Shown here: in pieces, positions 4,109 to 53,939 of the stretch
Position numbering within the stretch: the stretch's first letter is position 1
Layout: every line of letters starts with the position of its first letter
From: a bacterium
GTDB lineage: Bacteria; UBP6; UBA1177
Direction of reading: 5' to 3'
Assembly: GCA_017645765.1 (NCBI GenBank)
Contig: JAGCNV010000043.1
Location: forward strand, 1 to 59,386
Length of the DNA stretch: 59,386 nucleotides
Translations under genes and position numbers: made by a program
The notes under the pieces: model-generated
Told to the model about the DNA's origin: nothing
Databases searched by the model: none
Seen by the model: the letters and a program-made list of their open reading frames with translations, nothing else

Positions 4109-4118
4109 TTGCAAACAG

Positions 4119-5162: not shown

Positions 5163-5378
5163 TTTTCCTCCAATTTTATCAAACAACCGACATAAATATA
5201 CACTAAGAGAATAGAAAGTCAAACAATATTTTGATAATTTTGCAATATATCAATATTTTTATTGACTAATATTATTTAAATAGTTATTGTTGAAAAGTTT
5301 TTTTATTTGTACTATTTGAAAATATTGGATTTTGAGATTAAGAAATGCTTATTGTCTTAACAAAATGGAGAGAAAGAA

Positions 5379-10530: not shown

Positions 10531-10540
10531 TGCACCTCTC

Positions 10541-12859: not shown

Positions 12860-12905
12860 GAATCCTCCGGGAAAACAGACAGAATTTCAGAATAAATTTG
12901 AAAAC

Positions 12906-14684
12906 TTATATCGCAGCAGTCATCTTTTTGAGCCAATCTTTTTCCTCTTTGCCAAGAAGCGGCGACAATGTCTTGAAAACAAGTTTATGATAGTCGTTGA
13001 GATATTTCTTTTCCTCATCGGAAAGAAGCGCCGGCTCGATTGCGCGGATATCAATCGGGCACATCGTGAGGTTTTCAAATCCTACAAATTGACCCCAAGC
13101 CGTCTTTTCTTTCGGAACTGAAAGAACGAGGTTTTCGATCCTGATGCCGTACTGATCGGGTTCGTAGTAGCCGGGCTCGTTCGAAACAACCATTCCGGGA
13201 ACGATTTTTGTGTCGCTTCTGCGGGTCGAAATGCTCATCGGACCTTCATGGACGCTGAGGTAAGCGCCGACGCCGTGGCCTGTGCCGTGGAGATAGTTCT
13301 TACCGTCTTTCCAGAGTGCCTCTCTTGCAAACGCGTCGATGTTCGCGCCGGTCGTGAAGCCCTGCGGGAACTGCGTGATCGCGATCCTGATGTGACCTTT
13401 GAGGACGTTCGTGAAATCTCTTTTCATATTTTTGGTGAGTTTTCCCATCGCGACGGTTCTTGTGATGTCGGTCGTGCCGAAAAGATACTGCGCGCCGCTG
13501 TCAACGAGGTAAAGTCCTGCCGGTTTAAGCTCGCAGTCTGTTTCGGGAGTCGCGCTGTAGTGGATTATCGCGCCGTGAGCACCGTAGCCCGAAATCGTGT
13601 CAAAGCTGAGTCCTGCAAAGCCTTCGCCCTCTTTGCGGAAAGCTTCGAGTTTGTCGCTTGCCGAAATTTCGGTGATTTTTGTTTTGCCGATATTCTTGTC
13701 GAGCCAGCAGAGGAATTTTACCATAGCGACACCGTCAATGACGTGAGCTTTCTTCATTCCTTCGATTTCGGTCGCGTTTTTGATTCCTTTCATTATCTGC
13801 GACATGTTTTCGCCGTTTACGACTTCCGCTTTCTTGCAGTCAACTGCGTCAAGCAGGCTCTGCGATGTACGCGCCTTGTCAATAAAGATTTTTCCTTTGA
13901 GTTCTTTGATGAAAGTGTAAATTTCTTCGTATTTATGAATAGTTACGCCGTCTTTTGCAATAGAGTCGGCATCTTTTTTATTGAATTTGCCTTCTTTCAC
14001 GAAAAGATCTGCCGTTTTTTTACCGATTACACCGAAACCCATGACAACAGGATTGCACTCTACATCGTTTCCGCGGATATTGAAAATCCACGCGAGGTCG
14101 TCAAGAGAAGCGAAAAGATGGTAGTCGACACCTGCTTCAGCCATTTTCGATCTGATGTTTTCAAATTTCTCTTTTCTGCCGAGTCCTGCGTATTTTACCG
14201 GGTGAAGGAAGCCCTTTCCGCTCGGAAAAGCAGGTCTGTCCTTCCAGATTTTGTCGATAAGGTCTTCGCTGGAAGCAACTTTGATCCCTTTCGGTTCGAA
14301 AGTCTTTTTCAGATCGTCAACATCGTTTATAGACATTACAGATGCATCAAAACTGACGACTTCGCCTTTTTTAAGTTCACCGCCGATCCAGTCGGTGTAA
14401 CTCGGAGTTTCGGGAAGTCCCGCTTTGAAAAGGGTTATCGTGCTTCCTTTGAGCTGGTTTTCAGCCTGAAGGAAATATCTTCCGTCAGTCCAGAGCCCCG
14501 CTTTTTTCATCGTGACAACAACTGTTCCGGCAGAGCCTGTGAAACCGCTTATCCACGCTCTCGATTTCCAGCGCGGAGCGACATATTCGCTCTGGTGCGG
14601 GTCTGCACTCGGAATGATGTAAGCCGCAATCTTTTTTTCCTTCATCAAAGCTCTGAGCTCAGCAAGTTTAGATGTGATCTGCAT
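12906..14684 (-). CDS. pepP: Xaa-Pro aminopeptidase (M24B, three-domain type)
   Basis: This cytosolic metallopeptidase removes an N-terminal residue preceding proline. The 592 residues match the long three-domain aminopeptidase P: two creatinase-like N domains (about 1-300), then the pita-bread domain. Metal ligands are visible in LVDSGAQYLFGTTDITRT (two Asp), HGTGHGVGAYLSVHEGP (His) and NEPGYYEPDQYGIRIEN (two Glu). There is no signal peptide. GGAGG lies just upstream of the ATG at 14684. It heads the cluster that runs to tmk at 8189. Confidence 0.95.
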   Translation of the reverse strand: MQITSKLAELRALMKEKKIAAYIIPSADPHQSEYVAPRWKSRAWISGFTGSAGTVVVTMKKAGLWTDGRYFLQAENQLKGSTITLFKAGLPETPSYTDWIGGELKKGEVVSFDASVMSINDVDDLKKTFEPKGIKVASSEDLIDKIWKDRPAFPSGKGFLHPVKYAGLGRKEKFENIRSKMAEAGVDYHLFASLDDLAWIFNIRGNDVECNPVVMGFGVIGKKTADLFVKEGKFNKKDADSIAKDGVTIHKYEEIYTFIKELKGKIFIDKARTSQSLLDAVDCKKAEVVNGENMSQIMKGIKNATEIEGMKKAHVIDGVAMVKFLCWLDKNIGKTKITEISASDKLEAFRKEGEGFAGLSFDTISGYGAHGAIIHYSATPETDCELKPAGLYLVDSGAQYLFGTTDITRTVAMGKLTKNMKRDFTNVLKGHIRIAITQFPQGFTTGANIDAFAREALWKDGKNYLHGTGHGVGAYLSVHEGPMSISTRRSDTKIVPGMVVSNEPGYYEPDQYGIRIENLVLSVPKEKTAWGQFVGFENLTMCPIDIRAIEPALLSDEEKKYLNDYHKLVFKTLSPLLGKEEKDWLKKMTAAI

Positions 14685-36754: not shown

Positions 36755-39700
36755 ATGAATTTGACCAAAAAAGCATTGTCGCTGCTTATTGCTCTCATTG
36801 CTGTGATGATGGCGGTATCATGCACAACTGAAAGAAGTGCAGTCGACAAAACAGACGAACTTGCTCTCGACAAAAGGTTGTTCGACGGTGAGTTCTTTTT
36901 ACGTCAGACCATTGTTGATCTGCCTTACACTGCGGACTACGCATTCATAGGCGAATCAAGCAGCGGTAAAGTTATCAAATGGAAAATCACCGAGAATTGG
37001 CTCATTGCTTACAGCATTTGGGACAAACTCACCGCTGTTGACACCAACGAAATCGTTGACGTCAACGAAACCCCGATCGTTGCTTACCCGATCGCAGCTC
37101 ACTACGACATAGTTCCGAGTGAGAACCCGACGACTGGCGAAGCACTTCCCGTTCTCGTTCCGAACACTGACAGACCGTGGAACGAGAGACGTTACTTCTC
37201 TCTCGCGACTTACTCGAGAAGCGGCGTAACGAACTATGAACTTCAGTACCTCTCACTCACCCAGGAATGGGGAGCTCCTTTCTACAGAGCAGGTCTCACG
37301 ACTGCTACGGATTGGGAGTTCTACGCTCATGACGGCACATTCATCGTTCCGAAGAAGTATCGTGACTACACTGCGATCAAAGACGACAAAGAAAGATACA
37401 ACAAGGAAGTTGAATGGTTCCAGTTCTTCTCGACCGAATACTTCGAGCCGATTAACGACTGGGATTCAATCTATAACTGGGACGATATCGATGAATTCGT
37501 CGGCAACGAACCGGCTGCTGTAACCTATCGTTTCGTATTTTCGAAAATCAACAGAGACGTTGTCGGAAGAAGAGATTACGACATCAAATCCAAGACATTC
37601 AAATGGACTCCCGGTGCAAAAGACAACGGTTTCAGACCGCTTGAATATCCGGATGAAATGTTCCGTGAATACGGTTTCTTCACCAACAAATTCAAAGGTT
37701 ACGACAACTATCACGGATACAGAGAAGACAACTATCACACCCTTGCAAACTACTGGAATATGGCTTGGGCTGATGCAAACAAAAACTGGAACTTCAACTG
37801 CGGAAACGAAAAAGACTACAACAAATGTCTTAGCAAAATCAAATACCAGCAGAAGATCGTTTTCACATCTTCTCCGAAAACTCCTCTCCGCATGCTTCCT
37901 GCAAACTGCGCGATCACGAAAGACTACAACTACGCAATGCTCGGCGCAAGATTTGCAGCTATGAATCCGGGAAGCGATACCCGTGCTTTCGATGCATGGT
38001 ACTTCGAAAACTACAAAAACGACTTCTTCAAGGAAGTTAAAGGCGCTGACGGCAAAACCGTTAAAGTCAGAGACCTTGAGTGGTACACTTCCAACCTCAA
38101 CGATCCGAACAACCCGCACAAAAACTGGAGAGAAAAATGCTTTGTTCCTGACAGACAGGCATGGATCCAGAAATGGAACGGTGATTTCATTGATGAGAAC
38201 ACCGAAGACTCGAAAAAGATGGCAGATCTTCTCGAACAGTACAAAAACGATATAGTCGTTATGGTCGAGAACCCTGTAGAATCTTATGTTCCTGCCAGAG
38301 ACGGTAAAGCTCTCTACGGTTTCGGAAATTACTACAACCTTTCTTCCGAAAGCCGTGAAAACGCTGTAAAAATCTGTGTAAAGAAAGACGAAGCTGACCT
38401 TTATGATGAAGAAAAGGTTATGTACTTAACGACCTGCTACACCAACGACGATAAAATGTCGGAACTTTACGTAGACAAGTTCGGTTATCCGGAATGGAGA
38501 GGCGATCGTTGGGACTGCCAGATTTTTGCTGAAGACGAAAACTGCCCCAAAGACTACGTTGCAGTAAAAGCTGCATGCGTTCTCAACGAAGAGAGAGCTT
38601 GTGAAGTTGAAGACGGACTTCCTGTTCTTCGTCACAAATATGACAACGGTAACCCGTACGCAGCTCTTATCAACTGGGTCGACAAACCGACAGAATACGG
38701 TATTCTCGGTGTTTCTCAGTGGAACGTAAACCCTGAAACCGGTATGAGCCTGGGCGGCGGCTCGAACATCGCAGGATCTGTTCTTGCATGGGCAAACACC
38801 AGAGCAATAGAGCTTGCAAGAGTTCTCATTAACGATGACGATCCGGCAGCTTGGGACTGGAAAGAACTCATCAATCCTGACTACTCCCACACTCCGGAAG
38901 TTATCTGGGACAATAAAACCAAAGCAGCAAGCAAGAAATCTGTTGCCAAGACATCGCAGAAACCTTACAGCTCCGGCAACCTTATGACCATGGTCAAAGC
39001 TTCATCAAAAGCAAAGACCCCGGAAGAAAGACTTGAGGAACTCAATCGTGAGTATGAACTTAAAACCAGAAATTACGACAGATTCAATTTCGCTTCAATG
39101 ATAGGCAACGCGAAATGGGAAACCCAGATGGTTCCTTACTCGATCAAAAAGAACCTCTTCCCGTGGATGAATCCTTCTGACAATCCTGCTTACTCCGATG
39201 AGCAGAAGGAAATGATGCAGCCCTGGTTCGTAGGTCCGGCAGCTATGGAAGCCGAAATGGTTAAATACCTCAAGGCTAAATCGCTTGACTTCGACTTCGA
39301 CGAATCCTTCATGGATGGTTCCATTATCCAGTTCATAAAGGAAAAACAGAAAGAACTTTACAAGAAGATGAATTTCGAGCTTACCGAAGACGGAACTCCG
39401 GATTGGGAGAATATCGGCGAAAAAGCTAAAAAAGAATACGAAGAAGCTCTTATGTACGCTATCTATGATCCGTTGGAAAAGATGCAGTACAAAGGTGTTG
39501 CTGAGCACGAAATGGGTCACACCATGGGTCTCAGACACAACTTCATCGGTTCGACAGACCAGAGAAACTACGTAGACAACTACTATGCTAGTGAAAATTA
39601 TCCGGCTATGATGGATGGTATCAAAGACCTTCTCGTCAAAGAGCAGAAAGAAAAAGGTGACAAATACAATCCGGCAACATTCGGTATCAAGGCTTACAGA

Positions 39701-42115
39701 TATAAAAAAGCTTTCGAAACCGACGTCAACTACTACACCTACACTTCCGTAATGGACTACCAGAGAGAAGTTTACATCCACGCTGTAGGTCTTGGAAAAT
39801 ACGATTTGGCAGCACTCAAGTTCGTTTACGGACGCAGCTTCGAACAGTTCAAAATCGCAGACGACGCTGAATACGGTGAACTTGTCCATCAGGGCGACGA
39901 AAACGATACTTACACCGGCGCAAACAAGATCCATCCGCTCAGAGACGCAAAATATCCGGACTATGTCAGAACGAACGAGCAGTATCTTGACGAAAACGGA
40001 AAACTCAAAACTGTTAAAGTTCCGACCCAACTTTACACTTATTACGATTCGAAGGGCAAAAAGATTGAAAGAATCGCTCCGAAAGTCGGTATTGGACTCC
40101 GTGCAAAATTGAAAACCGATGACGATCTCAACTATGACTATGACTATGACTGCGACGATACTCAGGCTGAATGCACGAAAAACACGACTTACCTCGTAAA
40201 CGACGGCAGACACTATGAATATCTCTTCATCACTGATGAAAAATCATCTGATGATCCGAGAGCAAATACGTTCGATGCCGGCTTCATGGCTTCAGATGTA
40301 ATCAGAAGCATGGTTGATATGGACAACGCTTACTACTTCCTGAGATTCTTCAGAAGAGGTAACCCGAAGTTCAGAGAGTTCCGCGGCAGAACATCCATGA
40401 AGATGATCTACGACACACTCTTCGGAAAATACAAATACATCCACTTCATGCTTGATTACAACTTCTATGTTTACAGCAAATGGGCACCATACATCCTTAT
40501 CCCGAACGCAAATTACGATGTTCCCGGCGACAGCACTGATTACGATGATAAAGTTACTGTAAAGAACTATCTCTATGACGAATATCAGAGAGCTCTTAAT
40601 GGTGAGGAATACTGGCTTGACGCAAACGGCGAGCTTAGAACCCTCACTCCGATGAGCCCGGCAGACTACATAATCGCAGGTATGGAAGGTATCAACTACT
40701 TCTACTTCAACGTTCTTTACAGACCGGCTGTCGGAGAATATATGGAGGTAGATGCATCTAACGATTCCGACATCGCAGATAAACTTGAAGACGGTCAGGC
40801 ATACTACTTCCAGTCAACCGAAAACTACCTCGACGGTTATGCTGACTACATGAGTTTAAGTACCGTTAAGGTAGATCCTGTTCTCGGACGTTTCCAGAAA
40901 GACCGCTGGGATATTCAGGACAACGAGAACATTTACTACGACAAAGTCTTGAGAAGAGGCTATGCAGAAGAAAAAATGGTTGCTATATATGCAATCGCAA
41001 ACGCAGGATGGTTCGATGCGAAGTACAGAAGAGAAAGCCGTGCCAACAGCGTTGACCAGTTGATTGAAGGTCTTGAGAACGTTAAGTTCACAATGCTTTC
41101 CGATGTTGTCGACGAAGAAGCACTCTTCACATTTTCTCCGTATTGCTATTCTGCGGAAACCAAAAGTATCGTAAAAGTCGATGTTCCGATCAACATGCTT
41201 TCCAACTGGGCAGTAGCTCCTCTGTCTGCAAGTGATGATACCAAAGTCTACACTCCGAAGAAGAACATCTGCTCGCAGATCGAAGGCAAATATAACCCGG
41301 TTCACGCAGGCTGGACTTACTTCGACAAGATGTGGCCGATGTACTGGACCATGGGTAACGTTGCAAACACTTCGGCTGATACCTCAGTTCTCCAGAGATT
41401 CGTAGCTTACAGGATCAACACTTACGACATCAAAAACTATCCGGAACCTGATGTAAACGAAACCCAGTTCCTCAACAAGGACGGAAACGCTTACTACAGA
41501 GCAGTTCTTGCGAAATCGTCTCTCGATATTCAGGATCAAACCGGTCTTATGAAATGGAAAGAGTGCAACGATCCTTACGATACCGCTGATGATGATCTTT
41601 GCATGAAACAAGTTACTTTCACGTCAGACGGTGCAGATGCAGCAAACGCTGAACTCGGTGTTACCTGGCTAGAAGAGAAGAAATGTGTACTTGTTGCAGA
41701 CGAGAACACTGAATCTGACAAATGCGTAGACGAAAAAGAAGAGGATGCCGAAACAACAAACGAAGCGAACGGTGTTAAATGGATAACGACAGAAAAGAAA
41801 TGCGTACTTGTTGACGACAATAAAACTATTTCCGATAAATGTATCTCTGAAGGAGACGAACGTTTCCTGGCAGGTGGAGATGTTACTCCTAAAGAACAGT
41901 TCAGACGCTATCTTGCAGACAAATACGCTAGACTTTCACCGTCGTTCAGACTTGTTCAGAGTGCCGGCAAACTCAAAGAAGGCGAAGATTCAGACCTTGC
42001 TAACGGTCAGGAAGGCTATTCCAGACTGGTCATCATGGAAACAACGATTGATCAGCTCAACTCTTTCGCAGCTGACAACCTCGGTTTCGCAGTCGAGTAT
42101 GCTTCACGCTACTAG
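36755..42115 (+). CDS. giant zinc metalloprotease-like lipoprotein (metzincin-type site)
   Basis: The 1786-residue protein has a lipobox signal (MMAVSCTTERS, Cys at about 23). AEHEMGHTMGLRHNF places the zinc site HExxHxxGxxH at 918-928, with the Glu at 919, as in metzincins and the large DUF4953/DUF5117-type bacterial metalloproteases. YTSVMDYQRE (about 1004-1013) lies where the Met-turn is expected. The flanking 900 and 850 residues are Tyr/Asp/Asn-rich and unknown. Near the C-terminus (about 1634-1700) a Cys unit occurs twice: GVTWLEEKKCVLV...SDKC and GVKWITTEKKCVLV...SDKC. It probably acts on the cell surface. An RBS AGGAGG and a strong terminator frame the gene. Confidence 0.82.
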   Translation: MNLTKKALSLLIALIAVMMAVSCTTERSAVDKTDELALDKRLFDGEFFLRQTIVDLPYTADYAFIGESSSGKVIKWKITENWLIAYSIWDKLTAVDTNEIVDVNETPIVAYPIAAHYDIVPSENPTTGEALPVLVPNTDRPWNERRYFSLATYSRSGVTNYELQYLSLTQEWGAPFYRAGLTTATDWEFYAHDGTFIVPKKYRDYTAIKDDKERYNKEVEWFQFFSTEYFEPINDWDSIYNWDDIDEFVGNEPAAVTYRFVFSKINRDVVGRRDYDIKSKTFKWTPGAKDNGFRPLEYPDEMFREYGFFTNKFKGYDNYHGYREDNYHTLANYWNMAWADANKNWNFNCGNEKDYNKCLSKIKYQQKIVFTSSPKTPLRMLPANCAITKDYNYAMLGARFAAMNPGSDTRAFDAWYFENYKNDFFKEVKGADGKTVKVRDLEWYTSNLNDPNNPHKNWREKCFVPDRQAWIQKWNGDFIDENTEDSKKMADLLEQYKNDIVVMVENPVESYVPARDGKALYGFGNYYNLSSESRENAVKICVKKDEADLYDEEKVMYLTTCYTNDDKMSELYVDKFGYPEWRGDRWDCQIFAEDENCPKDYVAVKAACVLNEERACEVEDGLPVLRHKYDNGNPYAALINWVDKPTEYGILGVSQWNVNPETGMSLGGGSNIAGSVLAWANTRAIELARVLINDDDPAAWDWKELINPDYSHTPEVIWDNKTKAASKKSVAKTSQKPYSSGNLMTMVKASSKAKTPEERLEELNREYELKTRNYDRFNFASMIGNAKWETQMVPYSIKKNLFPWMNPSDNPAYSDEQKEMMQPWFVGPAAMEAEMVKYLKAKSLDFDFDESFMDGSIIQFIKEKQKELYKKMNFELTEDGTPDWENIGEKAKKEYEEALMYAIYDPLEKMQYKGVAEHEMGHTMGLRHNFIGSTDQRNYVDNYYASENYPAMMDGIKDLLVKEQKEKGDKYNPATFGIKAYRYKKAFETDVNYYTYTSVMDYQREVYIHAVGLGKYDLAALKFVYGRSFEQFKIADDAEYGELVHQGDENDTYTGANKIHPLRDAKYPDYVRTNEQYLDENGKLKTVKVPTQLYTYYDSKGKKIERIAPKVGIGLRAKLKTDDDLNYDYDYDCDDTQAECTKNTTYLVNDGRHYEYLFITDEKSSDDPRANTFDAGFMASDVIRSMVDMDNAYYFLRFFRRGNPKFREFRGRTSMKMIYDTLFGKYKYIHFMLDYNFYVYSKWAPYILIPNANYDVPGDSTDYDDKVTVKNYLYDEYQRALNGEEYWLDANGELRTLTPMSPADYIIAGMEGINYFYFNVLYRPAVGEYMEVDASNDSDIADKLEDGQAYYFQSTENYLDGYADYMSLSTVKVDPVLGRFQKDRWDIQDNENIYYDKVLRRGYAEEKMVAIYAIANAGWFDAKYRRESRANSVDQLIEGLENVKFTMLSDVVDEEALFTFSPYCYSAETKSIVKVDVPINMLSNWAVAPLSASDDTKVYTPKKNICSQIEGKYNPVHAGWTYFDKMWPMYWTMGNVANTSADTSVLQRFVAYRINTYDIKNYPEPDVNETQFLNKDGNAYYRAVLAKSSLDIQDQTGLMKWKECNDPYDTADDDLCMKQVTFTSDGADAANAELGVTWLEEKKCVLVADENTESDKCVDEKEEDAETTNEANGVKWITTEKKCVLVDDNKTISDKCISEGDERFLAGGDVTPKEQFRRYLADKYARLSPSFRLVQSAGKLKEGEDSDLANGQEGYSRLVIMETTIDQLNSFAADNLGFAVEYASRY

Positions 42116-42140
42116 ATCCTGCTTAAACGGGTTTTTTACA

Positions 42141-42166
42141 GGGGAGCTTCGGCTCCCCTTTTTTTT
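42141..42166 (+). terminator. intrinsic terminator after the metalloprotease gene
   Basis: GGGGAGC-TTCG-GCTCCCC forms a 7-bp stem capped by a stable UUCG-type tetraloop and is followed by eight T. It closes the barrel-metalloprotease operon and separates it from the promoter at 42188. Confidence 0.95.
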
Positions 42167-42187: not shown

Positions 42188-42216
42188 TTGACAAAAACGC
42201 CGTGCTAACGTAATAT
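42188..42216 (+). promoter_or_regulatory. strong sigma70-like promoter of the uncharacterised membrane operon
   Basis: TTGACA (42188-42193) and TAATAT (42211-42216) are separated by 17 bp, 28 bp upstream of the first start codon. It directly follows a terminator, so the downstream genes form an independent unit. Confidence 0.75.
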
Positions 42217-42243
42217 GCCGAGTCTTAACGATTGGAGCTGAAC

Positions 42244-42531
42244 TTGGCAAGCGGCAGAGAATCGCATTTTGGGAACAAAAGTCCGGAAAACGGCTTTCAG
42301 GCAGAAGAAATCGCCAGCTTTCTAATATCAAAAAAACTTGAACATGCATCTTTGATAATGCTTGACATGATGATCCCGTTCAAAAGACAGATTTCTGCTT
42401 TTCTTTCTGTTGCCGAGCCTCTGTCTTCCCTTCTCTTCGGTCAGGAAAGAGCTGTAAAAATACTCGATTTCTCCCGCGGAGAAAATTCTTTGGAAGCGTT
42501 GCGGTCGGCACTTGAAAGAGGTGAAGAATGA
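42244..42531 (+). CDS. small hypothetical protein, first gene of the membrane operon
   Basis: The 95-residue soluble protein is read from TTG 42244, with GGAGC about 6 nt upstream. It is mostly helical (AEEIASFLISKKLEHASLIMLDMMIPFKRQISAFLSVAEPL) with an acidic tail. No known domain is recognised. Its stop overlaps the next start (ATGA), so it is translationally coupled to the MutL-like protein and probably works with it. Confidence 0.65.
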   Translation: MASGRESHFGNKSPENGFQAEEIASFLISKKLEHASLIMLDMMIPFKRQISAFLSVAEPLSSLLFGQERAVKILDFSRGENSLEALRSALERGEE

Positions 42532-43988
42532 ATTCTGAGAACTTCACCGTATTTCTATCAATGCGGAATATCGTAAGAAAAATCAGGATAGATTTCGACT
42601 ACTACAACGAAAGTATCTCCGCCGAGACAGAAGAAAGAACGCTTGGAGCAGACGACGACATAAGGCGCGAAATAGCGAAATTTTATGAAAAAAGCGGAGC
42701 AAAAACGGAAAAAACGATACAGCGCATAATAATCCCGAAAAGACTTATGAACGCCGCGGTTTTCGGGATAAGCGAAGAAGGGTCCACCAGGTCGGCAAAA
42801 AGGCTCGCATGGTCGAAACTTCTCAATGTAAAGCAGGCATACTCGGCTTCCGACGCATTTTCGACAGTCGACCTGACTGACATAGATTATATAATAATTG
42901 CAGGCGGTTACGACAATTCTATAAACAACAGGCTTAACAGCATGATCGTTTCTCTCGGCAAGAATCCGCAGCTTCTGGAACTAAAACCAGACATTATTTT
43001 CGCGGGTAGCAGGCTTTCGCTGGAAACAGCACGCAAGGAACTTGCCAAACCGGGAATACGCTTTTCTGCACAGCCGAATGTGCTCGAAAACAGCAGCAGC
43101 TATGCCGCAGACGATGAACTTTTACAGCAGAACAGTATTTCAACGCTCCAGCAGATGACGCTTTGGGACGAAATCGAAGACGTGAAGATAAACGACATCG
43201 CATATACAGAAGCTTTGCGCAAAATTTCCGATGTTTTCTGCATGAAACGCTCCGAAACAGTTCTCTCGGCACTGTTTACCGATGACTATTCCCTGCTCAG
43301 TCACGCGGAACGAGGTGCCGGAACAACTTTGTTCAGAAACTATGCCGTTCCTCAGGAAGCAGGAACTCTGACCACAGAGGTCTTCGAGTCGGTTTTCAAC
43401 GATCTTCTAATTGAAAAGCAGACGGTTTTTGACGAAAATTTTCAGCAGAAAAATGTTATGGCCATCGACAACTCGGCAAAAGAAAACATTCTTTTCGAAC
43501 CTGACAGAGTAATAGGGGTAACGCTCACCGACAAAATCGATTTTGATGCTTTTCTCCGCTTTGTTTCCATCCCGGGAGTAACACACGGAACGATATACTT
43601 TCTCTTTGACGACCAGGGCATAATTCTCGCCGGAATGTCGATGTTTATGAAAGGAAAAGGGGCAAACAATTCGTTTCTCAGAGGATTTTTTAACACCACC
43701 GACATAAAAAACGGCTGGATATTCATACCTTACGGCAGATTCAGAAAAGGCGCTCCGGCAATTTTTATAGAAAAACTCGAAAATGACAGAAAAGAGGATA
43801 TCGTGCTCAGGTGGGGCGAATACCGCGTTTTCGAAATAAACCCCGATTCGGTAGTCGAGATCCACACTGCGAAAGGAGTCTTTATGACCAAAAACGACCC
43901 TGAAAGCAACAAGAAGACAATAGGCACGAAAAAGAGCAGGAAGACGCTGATTTTCGACCTTCGGGAAGAGATGCACAAATGGAAGTAA
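42528..43988 (+). CDS. hypothetical protein with MutL(GlmL)-like segments
   Basis: The 486-residue soluble protein has segments that resemble the second half of glutamate-mutase MutL-type ASKHA proteins: DYIIIAGGYDNS (about 120-131), LKPDIIFAGSRLSLETA (about 152-168) and AQPNVLEN (about 184-191). The typical phosphate loops of active ASKHA ATPases are not evident, so it may be a degenerate, non-catalytic member. The C-terminal third has NGWIFIPYGRFRKG and ends in a Lys-rich tail. No glutamate mutase subunits are near; a scaffold or regulatory role in the membrane complex encoded downstream is inferred. Confidence 0.5.
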   Translation: MNSENFTVFLSMRNIVRKIRIDFDYYNESISAETEERTLGADDDIRREIAKFYEKSGAKTEKTIQRIIIPKRLMNAAVFGISEEGSTRSAKRLAWSKLLNVKQAYSASDAFSTVDLTDIDYIIIAGGYDNSINNRLNSMIVSLGKNPQLLELKPDIIFAGSRLSLETARKELAKPGIRFSAQPNVLENSSSYAADDELLQQNSISTLQQMTLWDEIEDVKINDIAYTEALRKISDVFCMKRSETVLSALFTDDYSLLSHAERGAGTTLFRNYAVPQEAGTLTTEVFESVFNDLLIEKQTVFDENFQQKNVMAIDNSAKENILFEPDRVIGVTLTDKIDFDAFLRFVSIPGVTHGTIYFLFDDQGIILAGMSMFMKGKGANNSFLRGFFNTTDIKNGWIFIPYGRFRKGAPAIFIEKLENDRKEDIVLRWGEYRVFEINPDSVVEIHTAKGVFMTKNDPESNKKTIGTKKSRKTLIFDLREEMHKWK

Positions 43989-44710
43989 TGATCGATTTTA
44001 AAATATTTTCGCTTTTCGCGATATTCATGATTTCTCTTCTGCTCCCGAATATTTTCGTCAGAAAATTCCCTTCGAAACTGTCGAGAGAGACGATGCTCCT
44101 GCTTCAGTTCATCAAAACGATGATTGACGAGGACAGCGGAAGGATCGCGGTCAACAGCTCTATTGATTCGAAAGCTCACCCGCTCTTTTCGGCTGCTGCA
44201 AGATTCATAGACGAGATCCTGAAAGAAAGCGATGCCGGAAACAGTGTCAGAACGACTATTCCCGAAGAGTTCGGCGTTATCGCGACACACAGTTCGGAAA
44301 ATGCATCGATTCTTTTCACACCGCTTTCGAACGCCAACAATACATTCTACACAACTATCGAAAAACGCGAGATGAACGCATCGCTGATCCTCAATATTTC
44401 GGACGGATCGGCAATTTCAGACTGGGATGCCTACAATTCCGATTCCGACAAGAAACGGATCGCGCTGTCATGCTCGATAGAAGGACTTCTGATTGACGCA
44501 ATCAACTCGAAAAAGTGTCTGATTTCACTTGAACCGTTTCTGATGAGCGCACAGATCAAGAAGCTGAAAAACAAGCGTACTCTCGAAACTTTCGGGGTAT
44601 ATCTTTTTTTAGCAATAGTTGCTGTTCTGATACTTTTTCTTTCGCTGAGCAGAACTCTGGCACTATACTACCCTTTTTTCGATAAACTCATAAAAACGGT
44701 GAACGGATGA
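43979..44710 (+). CDS. hypothetical membrane protein with two terminal TM segments
   Basis: The 243-residue protein has TM segments near both ends (about 8-25 and 208-230) and a central domain of about 180 residues with no recognised fold. Two starts are possible: ATG 43979, 10 bp inside the preceding gene, or ATG 43988 in the TAATG overlap. The stop overlaps the next start by 4 bp. Tight coupling on both sides suggests it is a subunit of the same complex. Confidence 0.65.
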   Translation: MEVMIDFKIFSLFAIFMISLLLPNIFVRKFPSKLSRETMLLLQFIKTMIDEDSGRIAVNSSIDSKAHPLFSAAARFIDEILKESDAGNSVRTTIPEEFGVIATHSSENASILFTPLSNANNTFYTTIEKREMNASLILNISDGSAISDWDAYNSDSDKKRIALSCSIEGLLIDAINSKKCLISLEPFLMSAQIKKLKNKRTLETFGVYLFLAIVAVLILFLSLSRTLALYYPFFDKLIKTVNG

Positions 44711-46215
44711 AGTTAAAAATAATTCTCATATCGGTTTTCGTCTGCATCGTAGCAGTTTTCGTCATGATCTCGCTGGGTATAGAAAGCGTGTTTCTGACTA
44801 AGGCTGTGCGTTGGACGGAGATCGTCATAGTTCTTTCGTTCTTCGCCGGTCTAATGAAGTTTTTACTCAGAGAGACAGCTTCGATAAAAACATCCTTCCG
44901 TGCTCTCAAAGAGTCGTTCTCATCGCAGAAAACGACCTCGGTCATCAAAGATGTTCTCACTTCTTCCGACGAAAACGCAAAAAAGACGAAACTTCCGGGC
45001 GCAAATTCAGCCGTTCTGGCAAAAAAAGAACGTTCTCAGCATTTAAACCGCCTTTTGAATTCGCTTCTTATCGTCGTTTCAGCCGTTGCGACATTTACTT
45101 TAGGTTTCATAAATCCGGACCAAAGCCGGTATACTTTTGAAAACATCGTGCGGGAGCAGCCCGATTTCCTGACAGAAACAGCCCTTGTTTTTATCGAAAA
45201 CGATCTTTATCTCTCGAAATTTCCTTCGAAAAAAAAGCTGGCTCTCTACATTTCAGCCGATGTTTCGACAGATTTCTTCCCTTCAGAGGAGATGCTCAAG
45301 CAGGCAGATATAACGCTTAAAAACTATCAAAAACTCCTTTCTGAAAACAGGATCACTCCGCCTTATGCAGATTCATCAGATCCAGGAATAACTTTCATAA
45401 ATTCCAACGACATGAAACGCGTCAAAGAAATAAAAGAGAAAGTAAAATCGGCATCAGTCGACATAATTTCAGATATGTTCCCGATTTCTCAGGAACTTAA
45501 GGACTGGTTTGACGCATCAGTTTCGTCTTTGAAGCAGAACGAACTCAAATTCGGTCTGGAAGCAGGTGAAAAGAACCGTTTCGAAGACTTCAAATACAGC
45601 GGAATAAAAATCGACGGAAGCGGAACAGAACTTGAAACATGGATCACCAGAGAAAAGGAACTCCTGCGCACGAAATCGGAAAAACTGAACCAGGAGATGT
45701 TCAGATACAACAATTTTCTTACAAACAGCAGGATATCCGAAATGGCTGCGGAAAAACTTGCCGCTACCGGGTCATCGCCACTTCCGCCGGAAAGCAAAAA
45801 AAGAATAGCGGCGAAATTCCTTGAAACGGGAATCACTACAAGTCCAGAAATAAAAGGATTTATCCGCTGGATATACAGGTACATCTTCGATCCGCTGCTT
45901 TCATCTTTCGTAGCACTCCTGCTGCTCAATATGCTCTCTACGGTTTACAGCCGTTTTTCAGTCAGAAGTTACTCATACTGCGTCATAACAGTTGCCTTCG
46001 TACTGACGATGATCGGTCTCACTGACAAATACTGTATTTTTGCACAGGACCTTCTTTCAAACTGGAACGGTCCGTTCTCGCCAGGCTGGACAATGAATAT
46101 CCTTGCAGTGCCGGTATTCAAGGCATTGGCTATAGGAACGGCAAGCGGACTGCTGTTTTTTACGGCTGAAAACTTCTATACGACTTTTTTTGCAGGCTCA
46201 GGAGATAAAAAATGA
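44707..46215 (+). CDS. hypothetical multi-pass membrane protein
   Basis: The 502-residue protein has N-terminal TM segments (about 5-24 and 38-55), a third at about 118-138, a central soluble domain of about 250 residues rich in Lys/Glu/Ser, and three C-terminal TM segments (about 395-415, 425-443, 462-490). No known domain is recognised. It overlaps both neighbours by 4 bp. The size of the central domain suggests a periplasmic or cytoplasmic platform of the putative complex. Confidence 0.65.
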   Translation: MKLKIILISVFVCIVAVFVMISLGIESVFLTKAVRWTEIVIVLSFFAGLMKFLLRETASIKTSFRALKESFSSQKTTSVIKDVLTSSDENAKKTKLPGANSAVLAKKERSQHLNRLLNSLLIVVSAVATFTLGFINPDQSRYTFENIVREQPDFLTETALVFIENDLYLSKFPSKKKLALYISADVSTDFFPSEEMLKQADITLKNYQKLLSENRITPPYADSSDPGITFINSNDMKRVKEIKEKVKSASVDIISDMFPISQELKDWFDASVSSLKQNELKFGLEAGEKNRFEDFKYSGIKIDGSGTELETWITREKELLRTKSEKLNQEMFRYNNFLTNSRISEMAAEKLAATGSSPLPPESKKRIAAKFLETGITTSPEIKGFIRWIYRYIFDPLLSSFVALLLLNMLSTVYSRFSVRSYSYCVITVAFVLTMIGLTDKYCIFAQDLLSNWNGPFSPGWTMNILAVPVFKALAIGTASGLLFFTAENFYTTFFAGSGDKK

Positions 46216-47102
46216 GGAATTTTTTTAACAATATCTCGACCGGCATTGCAAAAATACCTCAGTGGAGTCTGATATTTCCTATTCTTTTCCTCATGCTGAT
46301 CCATTATTTTGTGATTTTCGACAGAAACACAACCGAAGCAAGACCTGAACTGAACGCCGCGGCAACGGAAAACGAAATGCAGGTTTTCAAGATGGTAAAC
46401 GAACTTCCTCATAATTCAAAAGTCCTGATTCTTGTAAACTACGGTCCCGAATCTAAATACGAACTTGAATCGGCAATGTCGGCACTGATCGGAGTTCTGG
46501 CCGAAAAAAACATCGGAATCGCCTTTGCGACAATGATTCCGAACGGCGTTGAATCGGCTTTCACCGCAGTCGAAAAAAGTATCGAGAACGGAAGTTTCGG
46601 CAAAGAACGCTTCGTTTACGGTCATGAATACACCCATTTGGGATTCATCGTAGGCGGCAATATCGCAACATACCTTATCGCCAACAACTTCGATGAAGTC
46701 AAAGAGCGCGACATCTTCGACAGCAGCACTGATATCCACCAGCCTCTGATGAGCGAAATCGGCACCATTTCCGATTTTTCGGCTGTTTTCGAGTTTTCAT
46801 CGCAGACTTTCGACGGCGTTCCGGGAATAGTCTCTTTTGCAGTAATGCAGAAAGACAAAAACGTGAAAAAAATCGCTTTCTGCTCGTCGGATATGCTTTC
46901 TGCCTACATTCCGTTCAGAGGATCGTTATATCTTGACGGGCTTATCGGCGGTTTTAAGTCGATCGCAGTATTCATCCACGAATTCCAGCCGTCCATGAAT
47001 ATAGAAAGGCAGTATTATATTATGTCTACGATCCTGTTTTACATAATCGGACTCGTGATATTTTCGAACTTGACAGCACTTACAAGAAAAAATAAAAAAT
47101 GA
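46212..47102 (+). CDS. hypothetical membrane-anchored protein with conserved alpha/beta domain
   Basis: The 296-residue protein has a TM segment near the start (about 18-36) and one near the end (about 268-288). The domain between reads as alternating beta and alpha elements: SKVLILVNYGPESKYELESAMSALIGVLAEKNI (about 69-101), FATMIPNGVESAFTAVEKS, and FVYGHEYTHLGFIVGGNIATYLIANN. I recall proteins with the same layout (a VNYGPE-like strand and a YxxLGFxxGG segment) in uncharacterised clusters of Chloroflexi and other phyla, but cannot verify it here. No catalytic motif is evident. Confidence 0.6.
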   Translation: MRNFFNNISTGIAKIPQWSLIFPILFLMLIHYFVIFDRNTTEARPELNAAATENEMQVFKMVNELPHNSKVLILVNYGPESKYELESAMSALIGVLAEKNIGIAFATMIPNGVESAFTAVEKSIENGSFGKERFVYGHEYTHLGFIVGGNIATYLIANNFDEVKERDIFDSSTDIHQPLMSEIGTISDFSAVFEFSSQTFDGVPGIVSFAVMQKDKNVKKIAFCSSDMLSAYIPFRGSLYLDGLIGGFKSIAVFIHEFQPSMNIERQYYIMSTILFYIIGLVIFSNLTALTRKNKK

Positions 47103-47743
47103 ATATTTTCAACGATATAGGAACAATAACGGCTTTAGTGCTCACCCTCGCGGTATTTTCAGGATTTTTCAAACCCAATCCGCTTTACCGTTTTGCAGAG
47201 TCGCTTTTCATAGGCGTTTCCGCAGGCTATTTTGCAGTTATCTGGTATTTTTCGATAATCAAACCTGCCTACAAATCGGCTGTCAGCGGAGATATTCTCA
47301 TACTGATACCGCTTCTGGCCGGTTTACTGCTCTTCATCCCTTCGAACAGCGAAGCAGCCTATTCCAAATTGAGATTTCTTCCGGCGGCATTCATCGTCAT
47401 CGTCACCACGGCGATCAACATTCCGATCTATTTTTCGGCTTTCATTCAGGAAATGATACGCTCTTCTATAATCCCTCTCGTTTCGTTTGACGAAAGCGGG
47501 AATATCCTGATCGATATGACGATAAACGCTGTACTCAGCATCGTATGTATCACGTCGGCAATCATGTTTCTGGTCGCACGCCACAGGAACAACAACCGTT
47601 TTATAAACACAACGGGCGAAATAGGAAGATTCTTCATATTAGTTGCAATAGGCTCTGCTTTTGCTTATACTTTGCTTTCGAGACTTATTCTTTTTATGGG
47701 TAAGATCGAGTTTATTATGAATGCTGTCAAAATGGGATTTTAA
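47099..47743 (+). CDS. hypothetical polytopic membrane protein
   Basis: The 214-residue protein is almost entirely hydrophobic with about six or seven TM segments (GTITALVLTLAVFSGFF, RFAESLFIGVSAGYFAVIWYF, ILILIPLLAGLLLFIP, AAFIVIVTTAINIPIYF and later ones). A polar loop FDESGNILIDMTINAV precedes the sixth segment. It overlaps the previous gene by 4 bp and is the last of the six tightly coupled genes; the S41 protease follows after 26 bp. No transporter family is recognised. Confidence 0.65.
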   Translation: MNIFNDIGTITALVLTLAVFSGFFKPNPLYRFAESLFIGVSAGYFAVIWYFSIIKPAYKSAVSGDILILIPLLAGLLLFIPSNSEAAYSKLRFLPAAFIVIVTTAINIPIYFSAFIQEMIRSSIIPLVSFDESGNILIDMTINAVLSIVCITSAIMFLVARHRNNNRFINTTGEIGRFFILVAIGSAFAYTLLSRLILFMGKIEFIMNAVKMGF

Positions 47744-47769: not shown

Positions 47770-50676
47770 ATGAGAAAGAAATTGGCGCTTGTGCTGGTTT
47801 TGTTTCTGGCGTTCATTCTCAACGCAAGCTTTTTCGGACATAATTCTCGGCTATTAAAAGATATGTCTCTGCAAAAAGGGGAAATAACAGTTTTCGCCCT
47901 CAAAACCGCAGAAAAACGCTATCTTGACAAATCAAAAATCAAAGCCGCAGACCTTCTGACTTATGCTCTGGATGCAGTTCAGGATGCTCTCCCTGAGACG
48001 CTCATCTCTTATGACAAAGAAAAAAAAGTAATAAATCTACAGATTTACAACCAAAAGCACTCTATAAAAGTGAAAAGTCTGCGCGATGTCGTCGATGTAG
48101 CCTACGCATTGAGACCGGTCTATATCCAGCTTGACCAAGAGTACGAACCGGAACCTCCGCTCACGAAAGACGATATAGAATACATCGCGATAAACGGCAT
48201 CCTCAAAAAACTCGATCCCCACTCATATATTTTTACGCCGAAAGATTTTGAAGACTTCGAGAAATCTACAGGCGGCAACTTCGGCGGTCTCGGAATAGTC
48301 GTCGGTATGAACGACAACGGCGAAATCACGGTAATTTCCCCGATGAAGGGAACTCCTGCGACAAAAGCGGGTATCGAGGCAAACGACGTCATCGTCCAGA
48401 TCGACGACACTTCGGCTGTAAACCTCACTCTCGACAAAGCTGTCAGCAAAATGAGAGGCGAACCCGGAACACCGATAACACTCATGATAAGGCGTGAAGG
48501 GGTGCCGGAACTTCTCAAATTCGAAATCGTCCGCGCCGTCATCAAAATCACGTCGGTTTTAGCGGCAATGCCTCAGCCGGGAATCGGATACATCAACCTT
48601 TCAGGGTTTATGGAAAACACCTATTCGACTCTTATCGAAGAGCTTGACGGACTCAAGAAGAAAGGAATGAAGGCACTCGTTCTCGATATGCGCAACAACT
48701 CCGGCGGTCTTCTCTCCCAGGCGATAGCGATAAGCGACATCTTCCTCGACAAAGGAGCTATAGTTGCAACAGTCGAAGACGATGAGGAGATCGAAGTCAA
48801 CTACGCAAAAAAGAGTCGCGGAGATATTCTCGATATTCCGATAATCGTAATGATAAACGAAGGTTCAGCTTCGGCGACCGAAATCGTCACGGCAGCACTC
48901 AAAAAGAACGGCAGAGCGACGGTTCTCGGCAGAAAAAGCTTCGGTAAAGGAAGCGTACAGACGATAATCGGCACTCCCGGCGGCGGCGGAATGAAGCTTA
49001 CGATCGCCGAATATCTCACTCCGGGCAACATTTCGATCCAGTCTGTCGGCATCACGCCTGACATCGAGACAAGAGCAGTTTTCATCCATCCCGACAAAAT
49101 TTCAGTCTTTGATTCCGGAGACAACATCCTGAAGGAAGGCGACCTCGAAGAACACATCGTCAGCCGCTACGCTCCGAAAACAATCGAAAAACCGAGCACG
49201 ACTATCCGTTACTTCAAAGAGTACAAAGATGTCAAAACGATAATCAAGGAACGCCGCGAACAGAAGGACGATGAGTTCAGAAGCGACGAAGAGATCGAAA
49301 TAGCCGTCAAAATCGCGCAGCAGATGACGCAAAACAAGAAAGCTTACGAAAGTTCTCAGGTGATAAAGGATGAAGAGTGGAAAAAAATCCTCGCCAAACT
49401 GCATGAAAACGGCATAAACTGGAAAGAAAAAGTCTCTCTCGCACAGCCGAAAACCGATACTTTGAAGGTCTCAATGCTGAGTGACGGAAAATTCAAAGGC
49501 GGCGAAACGGCGAAATTCACGTTCAAAGCGGAAATTGACGGCGAAATCGAAAACCTTCTCGGCGTTTTCGAGTCTCCGATCAAAAACCTCAGAAGGATAG
49601 AAGTTCCTTTCGGCACTTTCAGCGGCTCGGTCGAGCGAACCGTAAACATAAAACTTCCCGAATCGGTGCAGTGGCAGAAAACAGAAGGAACCATGAAACT
49701 CTATCTCAACGAACCGGAGAAGAAAAAAGAGATAAAAACCGAGAAATTCATGGTCGAAACTACTCCTGTCGAGCAGCCGGAACTTAAATTTGCTATTATG
49801 GCGGCAGAAACCGGCGGAAACCGTGACGGCTTCATCCAGAGCGGAGAATCGGCAGAACTCACCCTCATGATAACTAACGAAGGCAAAGGCGCCGTTCTTG
49901 AAGGAAAGGCGATGCTTATAAACACAAACGATACCGAAGAGATCTTCATCGAAAACGGAACGAATTCCTTCACACTCGAACCCGGAAAATCGATGAGTGC
50001 AAAATTCAAATTCAAGACCGAAATTCCTGCTAAAAAAGAGGATCTGGCGAAGCAGAAACTTTCCATGTCGGTTTACGACTACAAGCTTAAATACAGCGCA
50101 GAGTTCGACATTCCTTTTGCAGATGCTTCGAAATGCACTTTTGAAGAAGCTAAATCGAAAATAACGCTCTCTAAAGGAACCGAACTTTTCAGCGCGTCAG
50201 ACCTTTCGACAAAAATCGGCTCTGTCTCAGCGGAAGGGAACATTGATGCAGCAGGAAAATGCGGAGGCGCGACGCTTCTTGAAAGCGGTCTCTGGGTAAA
50301 AGCGGAAAACACAGCTCCGGCAAAAGGAAAAGCAGCTGCCGCGGTCGAAAACAACTATCCGATAAACATGCCTAAAATAACCTGCGATACGACGCCTCTC
50401 ATAACCGATCAGAAAACGACCAGAATAGAATTTGAGATCAATCCTGAAGAAGTCAAAGACGCTTTTGTTTTCCTCAACGGCAAAAAAGTTTTCTACAAAA
50501 GGATAGAAAAAGATGAAAAGAGCGAAAAAATAGGTGTTGATGTCGAAATGAAGAAAAAATACAACCGCATTTCCATTGCCGTAACGGGTCCCGATACGAA
50601 AACCAAAACCATTTCAAAGTTCATAACGTTTACAAAAGGCGAAGACAAAAACGAAGAAGACGACTACGACGATTAG
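47770..50676 (+). CDS. C-terminal processing protease, S41 family, with long C-terminal extension
   Basis: The 968-residue protein has an N-terminal signal or anchor (about 5-20), a helical region, a PDZ domain (about 165-250, with LGIVVGMNDNGEITVISPMKGTPATKAGIEANDVI) and the S41 core. The catalytic pair lies in INEGSASATEIV (Ser) and GRKSFGKGSVQT (Lys). Ordinary Ctp proteases end near residue 450. Here about 450 more residues follow, with beta-sandwich-like repeats (FKGGETAKFTFKAEIDG, QSGESAELTLMITNEGKGAV) that resemble CARDB/archaeal-type adhesive domains, and an acidic tail. It probably acts in the periplasm and may process products of the membrane operon before it. Confidence 0.88.
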   Translation: MRKKLALVLVLFLAFILNASFFGHNSRLLKDMSLQKGEITVFALKTAEKRYLDKSKIKAADLLTYALDAVQDALPETLISYDKEKKVINLQIYNQKHSIKVKSLRDVVDVAYALRPVYIQLDQEYEPEPPLTKDDIEYIAINGILKKLDPHSYIFTPKDFEDFEKSTGGNFGGLGIVVGMNDNGEITVISPMKGTPATKAGIEANDVIVQIDDTSAVNLTLDKAVSKMRGEPGTPITLMIRREGVPELLKFEIVRAVIKITSVLAAMPQPGIGYINLSGFMENTYSTLIEELDGLKKKGMKALVLDMRNNSGGLLSQAIAISDIFLDKGAIVATVEDDEEIEVNYAKKSRGDILDIPIIVMINEGSASATEIVTAALKKNGRATVLGRKSFGKGSVQTIIGTPGGGGMKLTIAEYLTPGNISIQSVGITPDIETRAVFIHPDKISVFDSGDNILKEGDLEEHIVSRYAPKTIEKPSTTIRYFKEYKDVKTIIKERREQKDDEFRSDEEIEIAVKIAQQMTQNKKAYESSQVIKDEEWKKILAKLHENGINWKEKVSLAQPKTDTLKVSMLSDGKFKGGETAKFTFKAEIDGEIENLLGVFESPIKNLRRIEVPFGTFSGSVERTVNIKLPESVQWQKTEGTMKLYLNEPEKKKEIKTEKFMVETTPVEQPELKFAIMAAETGGNRDGFIQSGESAELTLMITNEGKGAVLEGKAMLINTNDTEEIFIENGTNSFTLEPGKSMSAKFKFKTEIPAKKEDLAKQKLSMSVYDYKLKYSAEFDIPFADASKCTFEEAKSKITLSKGTELFSASDLSTKIGSVSAEGNIDAAGKCGGATLLESGLWVKAENTAPAKGKAAAAVENNYPINMPKITCDTTPLITDQKTTRIEFEINPEEVKDAFVFLNGKKVFYKRIEKDEKSEKIGVDVEMKKKYNRISIAVTGPDTKTKTISKFITFTKGEDKNEEDDYDD

Positions 50677-50773
50677 TTTTCTCTGACTGACAAGCAAAAA
50701 AGACTTTTTTTTATTATTTTTTCAGGTATAATCCGCGCCGTTGATGTTTTTTACACTTTTTAAGGAGGTTTCT

Positions 50774-52579
50774 ATGAAAAAGCTGATTGCATTGTTTGCA
50801 GTTTTGATGCTCTGCTGCTTATTCACAGCTTGCAGCGATGAAGAAGAAGAATCTACAATCAATCCGACAGATCCGACAAATCCGACCGATGAGCCGACAA
50901 ATCCGACGGATAATCCGACAAACCCGACAGATAATCCGACAAATCCGACGGATGATCCGACAAACCCGACAGATCCGACTGAACCGACCGAAGAACCGAC
51001 CGATGATCCAGTAGAAACCTGCATGTGCGGTCCGGACGATCAGGATGACGACGGAGACGGAATCCCGAACGGTGTTGACGGATGTGAAGATCTTGACGGC
51101 GATTCGCTTCCGAACTGCATTGACACAGACAGCGACGGTGACGGTATTCCCGATAATCAGGAATGTCCCGCACAGCCGTGCGTAGACACCGACGGTGACG
51201 GCACTCCCGATTTCCTTGACAGAGACAGCGACAACGACGGTCTTTCCGACAAGAAAGAAAAAGAAAACGGAACCGATCCGCTCAATCATGATACCGACGG
51301 CGACGGCGATGACGATTTGGCTGAAATCGCCTATGCTTCACAAGGTGGCGATGCAGATCCTCTGGACGACAGCAAACACATTCCGGAAGGTATTTTCTAT
51401 GTTGTTCTTCCCTATAACGCTCCGGCGGATGTAACGAGAGTTCTCACTTTCTCGACAAAGATCGAAGCTATCGATGTCGCGATTTTCTTCGACGACTCCG
51501 GCTCGATGGGCGATGAAATCAAAAAACTTAAAGAGGAAGTAAAAGAAAAAGTTGTCGGCGCAATCGCCAATCAGTTTGCAGACAATCCGAACTATGCTTC
51601 TTTCGGTCTTGTAAGATTCGGCTGGGAAAAACCCTTCATTGTTGAACAGACGATGACGACCGATGCAACGGCTGTTCAAGACGCTATCGGAAACCTCAAC
51701 GGCGACCAGGGCAACGAGCTTGCGATTTACGCGATTTACCTTGCTGCAACGGGCGAAGCTTACACGGGCAGCATGCTTCCGTGTGCGATGAACCAGTGCA
51801 AGGATCCTCTGCTTGGCGTTATGCACAGTGCAAAATACAATGTTGCAAAAGCTGACTGCTCAGGTGCAGACAAAATCGGAACGGCAGGCGCACTCTGTAT
51901 TAGAAAAAAATCAATGCCTATTTTCGTCGTAATCACAGACGAAGATTCGGACGACTGCATTCCTTACGGTTCACAGACAACTCTCAGCACTTCCTGCATG
52001 TTTGATGTCGGAACGAAAGAACTTTCAAAAGATCTTGCAATCGCCGGAATGAACGGAATCGGTGCAAAATTCATCGGTATTGATTCAGGTTTCGACGATA
52101 ACGGCAAAAAAACCGATCAGGCAAAAGACTGGTTCACCGGATTTGCACAGGCAACCGGTTCTCTTGACGCAAACGGCAACCCCTTCCTTTATCACACTGA
52201 AAACGCAGACGGAACAGGAATCGGCGGAAACATTACCGATGCAATCAAACAGCTTACGACCTGGATCGACATGGACGTTACGACAGGCAGTATCAGTGAT
52301 GAGGAATGCAACGGCGTTAACGCAGCAGAATTCGTAAAATCATCGAAAACTATAGCTGCTGATCCGCCTGAAGGTGTTGAAGGTCAGACTGAAACAACAT
52401 TCAAATCTGTAAAACAGGGAACCGACGTTACATTTGACGTTCACTTTTACAACGATTTCTGCGTCAACACCACGAACAGTTTCCTCAAATTCAACGCTCA
52501 TGCAACGGTTCTCGGAAACGGTTCATACCTTTCCAGCCACCTCATCAACGTCATCGTTCCTGAAGGAACCACAAAATAA
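50774..52579 (+). CDS. lipoprotein with Pro-Thr-Asp repeats, TSP3 repeats and a VWA domain
   Basis: The 601-residue protein starts at ATG 50774, after AAGGAGGT. The lipobox Cys is at about 20 ([11 protein letters not shown]). NPTD/NPTN repeats follow (about 30-75), then calcium-binding thrombospondin type 3 units ([21 protein letters not shown], about 88-190) and a VWA domain with MIDAS DDSGSM (about 241-246) that extends to about 530. Three or more Cys pairs occur inside the VWA region. It is probably surface exposed and binds partners or matrix through the metal site. A -10 TATAAT lies at 50727-50732, without a recognisable -35. Confidence 0.88.
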
Positions 52580-53092: not shown

Positions 53093-53123
53093 CCCACGGT
53101 TTTTGTTTTTAATGGAGATCTCG

Positions 53124-53939
53124 GTGAAATACTTAACACAATTCTTTCTTTTCATAATTTCGTTCCCGGTTTTAAGCCGCATATGGGGAAAAATCACAAA
53201 ACTGGAGTTCCCTGCCGTACTCATTCGGAAAGCGATTCAGATGTATGCCTCACATTATGAAATCGATATGCAGAATTTTGAAGGTTATCTCGACGATTAC
53301 GACTCTCTCTGCGCCTTCTTCACGAGAAAGCTCGATCCTTCGGTCCGTCCGCTCAAAAACGACGAGAATGCGTTTCTTTCGCCGTGTGACGGTGTTGTGA
53401 GCGTTCTTGAAAACATCCATGCCGATGTTGCGACGCAGGTCAAAGGGAAAAACTATCTCGTTTCGGATCTTGTCAAAAAGGAGCTTCCTTTCGAAAAAGG
53501 TTTCTGGCTTGCAACGATTTATCTTTCGCCGCGCGACTACCACAGATTCCACATTCCGGTCGATTCGACTCTTTCTGCCCACATTCACACGGGCTGGAGG
53601 CTTTTCCCGGTAAATTCGCTTGGACTCAACAACATCGACAGGCTTTTTATCCGTAACGAGCGCGTAGTCGCGAAATTCAAAGCTGAAAACTTCACCTACT
53701 TCTACACTGCAGTCGGCGCTACTTTCGTGGGTTCGATAAAGATGAATTTCACAGAAAAGTTTTCTGACGAGTGGGTAAAAAACGATAAAAAATATTCGCA
53801 GAACGACGATTTCGGAATGTTCGAAATGGGTTCTACCATCGTTCTTCTCGTTCCCGAAGAAGCGGTCGAAAAACCGATGGTCTCACAAGGTGAAAAAATC
53901 CGCGCAGGTGAACCGCTCTTTCTGCTCAAAAAATCGTAA
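53124..53939 (+). CDS. psd: phosphatidylserine decarboxylase
   Basis: This inner-membrane enzyme decarboxylates phosphatidylserine to phosphatidylethanolamine. The 271 residues include CDGVVSVLE (about 94-102), FWLATIYLSPRDYHRFHIPVD (about 135-155, conserved HRxH region) and FEMGSTIVLL (about 234-243), in which the Ser of GST is where autocleavage yields the pyruvoyl cofactor; the usual LGST is MGST here. The GTG at 53124 was chosen because GGAG lies 6 nt upstream; ATG 53112 in the same frame would add four residues and contain that RBS. Confirms a PE-containing, Gram-negative type membrane. Confidence 0.93.
   Translation: MKYLTQFFLFIISFPVLSRIWGKITKLEFPAVLIRKAIQMYASHYEIDMQNFEGYLDDYDSLCAFFTRKLDPSVRPLKNDENAFLSPCDGVVSVLENIHADVATQVKGKNYLVSDLVKKELPFEKGFWLATIYLSPRDYHRFHIPVDSTLSAHIHTGWRLFPVNSLGLNNIDRLFIRNERVVAKFKAENFTYFYTAVGATFVGSIKMNFTEKFSDEWVKNDKKYSQNDDFGMFEMGSTIVLLVPEEAVEKPMVSQGEKIRAGEPLFLLKKS

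Follow-up and report, generated by a model that had tools for sequence, protein, structure and literature searches.

The window, by which the whole analysed stretch of 59,386 nucleotides is meant, belongs to a 2.65 Mb bacterial genome whose nearest kin among named records are metagenome bins from rumen and gut; several of these bear the label bacterium UBP6 or 'uncultured Spirochaetales'. The central feature of the window is an operon of tightly packed genes for soluble and membrane proteins, laid out as follows:

42140..42166, + strand: intrinsic terminator of the upstream metalloprotease gene, an 8-pair stem with a T tract, kept in 11 genus loci
42188..42216, + strand: sigma-70-type promoter, TTGACA-17-TAATAT, with conserved hexamers and a drifting spacer
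42244-42531, + strand: gene A, 95 aa, soluble, TTG start; homolog of a small gene found upstream of MutL elsewhere
42528-43988, + strand: gene B, 486 aa, MutL/GlmL-type ASKHA protein without any nucleotide loops
43979-44710, + strand: gene C, 243 aa, predicted topology TM-cytoplasmic domain-TM, in the position of DUF6754
44707-46215, + strand: gene D, 502 aa, 6 TM, with an extracytoplasmic insertion of ~256 aa between TM3 and TM4
46212-47102, + strand: gene E, 296 aa, TM-(beta-alpha)6 domain-TM, domain predicted outside
47099-47743, + strand: gene F, 214 aa, 6 TM
47770-50676, + strand: gene G, 968 aa, exported S41/PDZ peptidase, MXAN_5808-like; operon member in the window's family

An earlier note made from the sequence had described a near-consensus promoter behind a strong terminator, and both elements are indeed present and conserved in 11 members of the genus. 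The terminator stem occupies 42140-42159, followed by the T tract, and the -35 (TTGACAAAA) and -10 elements hold constant positions; as the spacer varies and both hexamers, like the terminator, are retained, the promoter's match to the consensus is more than coincidence. Gene A starts with the TTG at 42244, preceded by GGAG. The same note put the overlaps of six successive genes at about 4-10 bp, and the measured values from A to F are 4, 10, 4, 4 and 4 bp, again conserved within the genus. It also counted two soluble and four membrane proteins, in agreement with a Kyte-Doolittle scan that finds no TM segments in A and B, two in C and E, and six in D and F. Its statement that one protein holds a domain between two TM segments is true of E but overlooks C, which has such a soluble domain too.

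The A-F unit is real, but a six-gene operon leaves out gene G, which lies 26 bp downstream of F. The two genes are linked in all 16 window-family loci tabulated and overlap by 4 bp in two sister genera, so the operon comprises seven genes in the window's family. G matches Peptidase_S41 at 3e-49 and carries both S41 and PDZ domains, and it aligns over nearly its full length with TIGR03900, the MXAN_5808 family of S41 peptidases (1e-177, 593 bits, below the NCBIfam cut-off of 661).

On the upstream side, directly before the operon, 36755-42115 encodes an exported protein of 1,786 aa with a Met-zincin motif (HEMGHTMGLRHN) and a DUF4953 match (8.6e-8), a gene conserved in both genus loci displayed (L021, L031). 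In sister genera, a PilZ-domain gene is found immediately upstream of the operon (L042 12320-12766, L043 12501-12938), and in L043 it is preceded by an OmpA/TSP3 protein. Downstream of G lie genes for a TSP3-repeat/VWA-like protein (50741-52579) and a phosphatidylserine decarboxylase (53103-53939, 1.5e-51).

None of A-F matches a Pfam or NCBIfam family above cut-off, in line with the earlier view that no family name gives a function. Relatives of E lead to distant genomes in which the neighbourhood consists of MutL, an RnfC_N-like protein, DUF6754, D, E and F, and where the two named families are matched strongly (MutL PF13941 at 1e-119, DUF6754 PF20539 at 1e-103). The canonical order is A-MutL(PF13941)-RNFC-like-DUF6754(PF20539)-D-E-F, as counted over 48 loci, with 40 further loci confirming the first neighbourhoods. 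In these far loci D-E-F follow 55 of the 57 DUF6754 genes; nine DUF6754 genes stand directly behind another quartet in tandem, and A-MutL-RNFC precede the DUF6754-D-E-F quartet in at least 15 cases. The similar MutL-plus-membrane clusters in other phyla that the earlier note mentioned are thus real, and they correspond in gene order and, as set out below, gene by gene.

Of 389 sampled genomes, 103 carried DUF6754, with as many as six copies in one genome. All 14 well-known control genomes lacked it, and this absence may be the reason why the module has gone unnoticed. A strong MutL match accompanies DUF6754 in 99 of these 103 genomes, compared with 10 of the 286 others (Fisher p ~5e-75, uncorrected for relatedness among partly related genomes). 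Exceptions are G083, G101 and G226, which have DUF6754 without MutL or RNFC, and G034, which has RNFC without MutL. Since Omp85 is carried by 365 of the 389 genomes, these proportions describe a mostly diderm sample; a restriction of the module to diderms was considered and set aside as uninformative, and three DUF6754 genomes (G085, G212, G328) have no Omp85 match. No DUF6754 gene was found on plasmids, and outside the window's family the genes that recur next to the module have housekeeping roles and offer no hint of its function. One small protein recurs widely beside the module (14 loci): usually of ~140-180 aa, with 2 TM segments near the N-terminus, it is encoded just upstream of A (L032 731-1189 and 13 other loci) and, although not seen in the window, is possibly a further module member.

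The canonical module MutL is a clear member of the MutL/GlmL family (PF13941, TIGR01319; 1e-119 to 1e-132), but at ~600-650 aa it is longer than GlmL-type copies of 450-470 aa and is encoded beside membrane genes. GlmL itself is an accessory ASKHA protein of glutamate mutase. The RNFC-like protein matches the N-terminal barrel-sandwich domain of RnfC/NqrA (PF13375) weakly, over residues 69-116 and at 24.8 bits against a cut-off of 25.6, and the remainder of the protein matches no family. Several variants of the module were noted in passing. A second class of MutL-domain proteins (880-1,034 aa) occurs alongside it in G105, G133, G165, G245, G289 and other genomes; in G146 the module is otherwise complete and MutL is split into two frames of 474 and 131 aa (L066 11426-13220), with one in-frame TGA reported; and L072 carries three additional tandem copies of E (3263-5968) downstream of its DUF6754-D-E-F quartet.

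Homology between the window genes and the module was assessed with profiles derived solely from members of the window's family, searched against 4,529 ORFs, and with HHalign for profile-profile comparison. The A profile reached the far A genes at 1.4e-13 (HHalign probability 96.9%), and the B profile reached MutL proteins at 3.4e-6 with no other match at E<=1e-3. HHalign joined D to its counterpart in L032 (98.8%, E 8e-14), E to the E family (99.9%, 1e-29) and F to the F family (100%, E 1e-37). The profile-profile comparison that the earlier note had proposed thus ties A, D, E and F to module families, at 96.9-100%, while C reaches DUF6754 at 3-4%. The window accordingly holds the D-E-F triplet of homologous membrane proteins in the same order, with A and a MutL homolog upstream. 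A duplication relating D and F was rejected (HHalign 6%). In a tree of E and F the sister lineage of the window's family is unplaced on account of the family's long branch. Taken together, the sequences of A, B, D, E and F and the position and topology of C make it almost certain that the window carries, as A-F, a divergent version of a bacterial module not described before.

Gene C shows no detectable sequence similarity to DUF6754 (HHalign probability 3.8%), and DUF6754 has no match above the Pfam cut-off in C or elsewhere in the genome; membership by sequence was therefore dropped. The resemblance lies elsewhere. Both proteins are encoded directly before D, the TM spacing is 202 residues in C and ~220 in DUF6754, and in both the positive charges lie on the domain side. 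C is retained as the positional equivalent of DUF6754, with homology unproven. The window's C lacks an FN3-sized ectodomain, whereas C of sister genera has an N-terminal TM and a segment of ~90 residues outside, which falls where the FN3 domain of DUF6754 sits. In the AlphaFold model of a canonical DUF6754 (pLDDT 91), a signal or TM segment is followed by a beta domain, a TM, six beta-alpha units and a TM. Foldseek identifies the beta domain as FN3, as does its sequence similarity to titin and a bacterial Fn3, and FN3 matches swamped the Foldseek list for the whole model. Charge counts place the (beta-alpha)6 domain inside (mean positives 4.1 and 2.4 on the domain side, 1.7 and 0.8 on the other), and the family has runs of invariant polar residues (R178, GRATEMG, Q277, R290, E305, E345).

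The AlphaFold model of the window's E (pLDDT 88.7) has a matching TM-(beta-alpha)6-TM layout. Paralogy of E and DUF6754 was rejected by sequence, since HHalign gives 1%, and the two are alike in the order of their secondary structure only. For E the charge counts run the other way, with mean positives of 1.6 and 2.0 on the domain side of the two TMs and 2.6 and 3.8 on the flanks that face away from the domain, and the domains of E and DUF6754 are thus predicted to lie on opposite faces of the membrane. In L086, the N-terminus of E (gene at 9732-14258) is extended by a long segment that includes a zinc ribbon, which is consistent with a cytoplasmic N-terminus. This extension is ~1,200 aa long and adds many 'DVPAWLRGDLADA' repeats to the ribbon; similar WL repeats occur in L085 and at the C-terminus of MutL in L086. 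E has no sequence relatives in the PDB, and Foldseek against the PDB returned a best match of 1.9e-3 with low TM-scores, mostly to generic Rossmann-like folds and with no enzyme family significant.

Gene B is a distant MutL/GlmL homolog (13.3 bits to PF13941, under the Pfam gathering cut-off of 27) whose nucleotide loops are gone. Canonical MutL carries the ASKHA loops DCGSTTTKA, STSSAGGG, DIGGATTD and GSGGVLSH, and all four are absent from the window's B and from every member of its family, which bears out the first impression of a MutL-like protein without evident ATPase loops. RNFC is missing as well from eight genomes of the window's family, the window's own included, and is present in the same-phylum genome G026. 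The joint disappearance of the DUF6754 signature, RNFC and the ATPase loops of MutL suggests that all three cooperate on the cytoplasmic side. That these three losses mark a decaying remnant of the module is scarcely conceivable, because dN/dS is 0.05-0.07 in B, a sign of strong purifying selection, and 0.05-0.08 in C, values like those of D-G that show both genes to be kept, and because the promoter and overlaps are conserved too.

The earlier note expected a stoichiometric membrane complex, and the conserved gene order together with the repeated DUF6754-D-E-F quartets makes formation of a complex plausible, as a prediction. The explanation to which we lean, tentatively and at somewhat below an even chance, is an ATP-dependent trans-envelope machine that has been rebuilt around a pseudo-ATPase in the window's family; its mechanism is what we infer from the parts. 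D and F, with six TM segments each, would form the membrane core, and DUF6754 (C in the window) and E would each hold a Rossmann-like domain by two TM helices, that of DUF6754 on the cytoplasmic face and that of E outside, together with the FN3 domains of DUF6754 in most members. Soluble MutL, as an ASKHA ATPase, and the RNFC-like barrel-sandwich protein would bind on the cytoplasmic side and power the core or gate it, and the output would be in the periplasm or at the cell surface. For the window's family we picture a rebuilt drive side, with MutL turned into a pseudo-ATPase scaffold, RNFC lost and C unrecognisable in sequence, and an output side of D, E and F that would be coupled to the exported S41/PDZ protease. 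The tie to this protease was observed in the window's family and not in other module loci, and there it points outward.

Alternatively, the module might be a surface-to-cytoplasm sensor, in which a ligand bound by the FN3 ectodomains of DUF6754 and the outer domain of E would send a signal via D and F to MutL and RNFC inside, with no transport involved. The ectodomain part of DUF6754 is highly variable in length (proteins of ~260 to ~1,000 aa), quartets are multiplied to as many as six DUF6754 copies per genome, as is often the case for sensor paralogs, and a PilZ gene stands upstream of A in two sister-genus loci. However, no kinase, cyclase or regulator is consistently linked among the neighbours, and almost every quartet includes both 6-TM proteins, so that we regard a sensor as unlikely, if worth keeping in view.

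It is also rather improbable that MutL acts as a reactivase or assembly chaperone for a membrane enzyme with its active sites in the Rossmann-like domains of DUF6754 and E. Such a role has been proposed for GlmL and is known for EutA-type ATPases, canonical MutL matches GlmL models (239 bits, under the cut-off), and the invariant polar residues of DUF6754 look enzyme-like. Nevertheless, metabolic genes do not consistently accompany the module, E resembles no enzyme family significantly by Foldseek, and the window's family retains its MutL homolog without the ATPase loops.

That the module is really a familiar transporter or secretion system (ABC, ECF, or a type II/IV pilus platform with a PilM/GspL-like ASKHA protein) is very improbable. 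Such an assignment, named at the outset as what would overturn the original reading, was looked for and none was found for A-F. An actin-like cytoplasmic protein at a membrane assembly does recall the PilM/GspL platforms of type IV pili and type II secretion, and GspL likewise lacks ATPase activity. The likeness is one of analogy only: the membrane partners differ, A, C, D, E and F lack family matches over cut-off, E lacks a PDB sequence relative, and the module contains no P-loop ATPase such as GspE/PilB, no secretin and no pilin. Known systems were rejected on the lack of family matches for the module genes.

The trans-envelope machine would, if taken further, represent a new class spread over many bacterial families, driven by an ATPase of the actin fold (ASKHA) and not by a P-loop ATPase, and with paired Rossmann-like domains on both faces of the membrane, working here with a pseudo-ATPase; this wider claim is possible, although doubtful. 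MutL and DUF6754 are named families, and the module as a system is not described, under the names looked for, in the 5.4 million open papers searched, a set that omits most subscription journals and all preprints and in which PF20539, DUF6754, PF13941 and MXAN_5808 receive no mention. With that coverage in mind the module is rated as categorically new, and the window's copy as a diverged variant of it.

To conclude, roughly one in four of the genomes sampled carries this membrane module, with as many as six copies per genome, and the module has had neither a name nor an assigned function. The window's lineage offers a natural experiment on it: the drive side in the cytoplasm has been stripped down or rewritten and the outer side retained, a pattern that suggests which parts can function by themselves.
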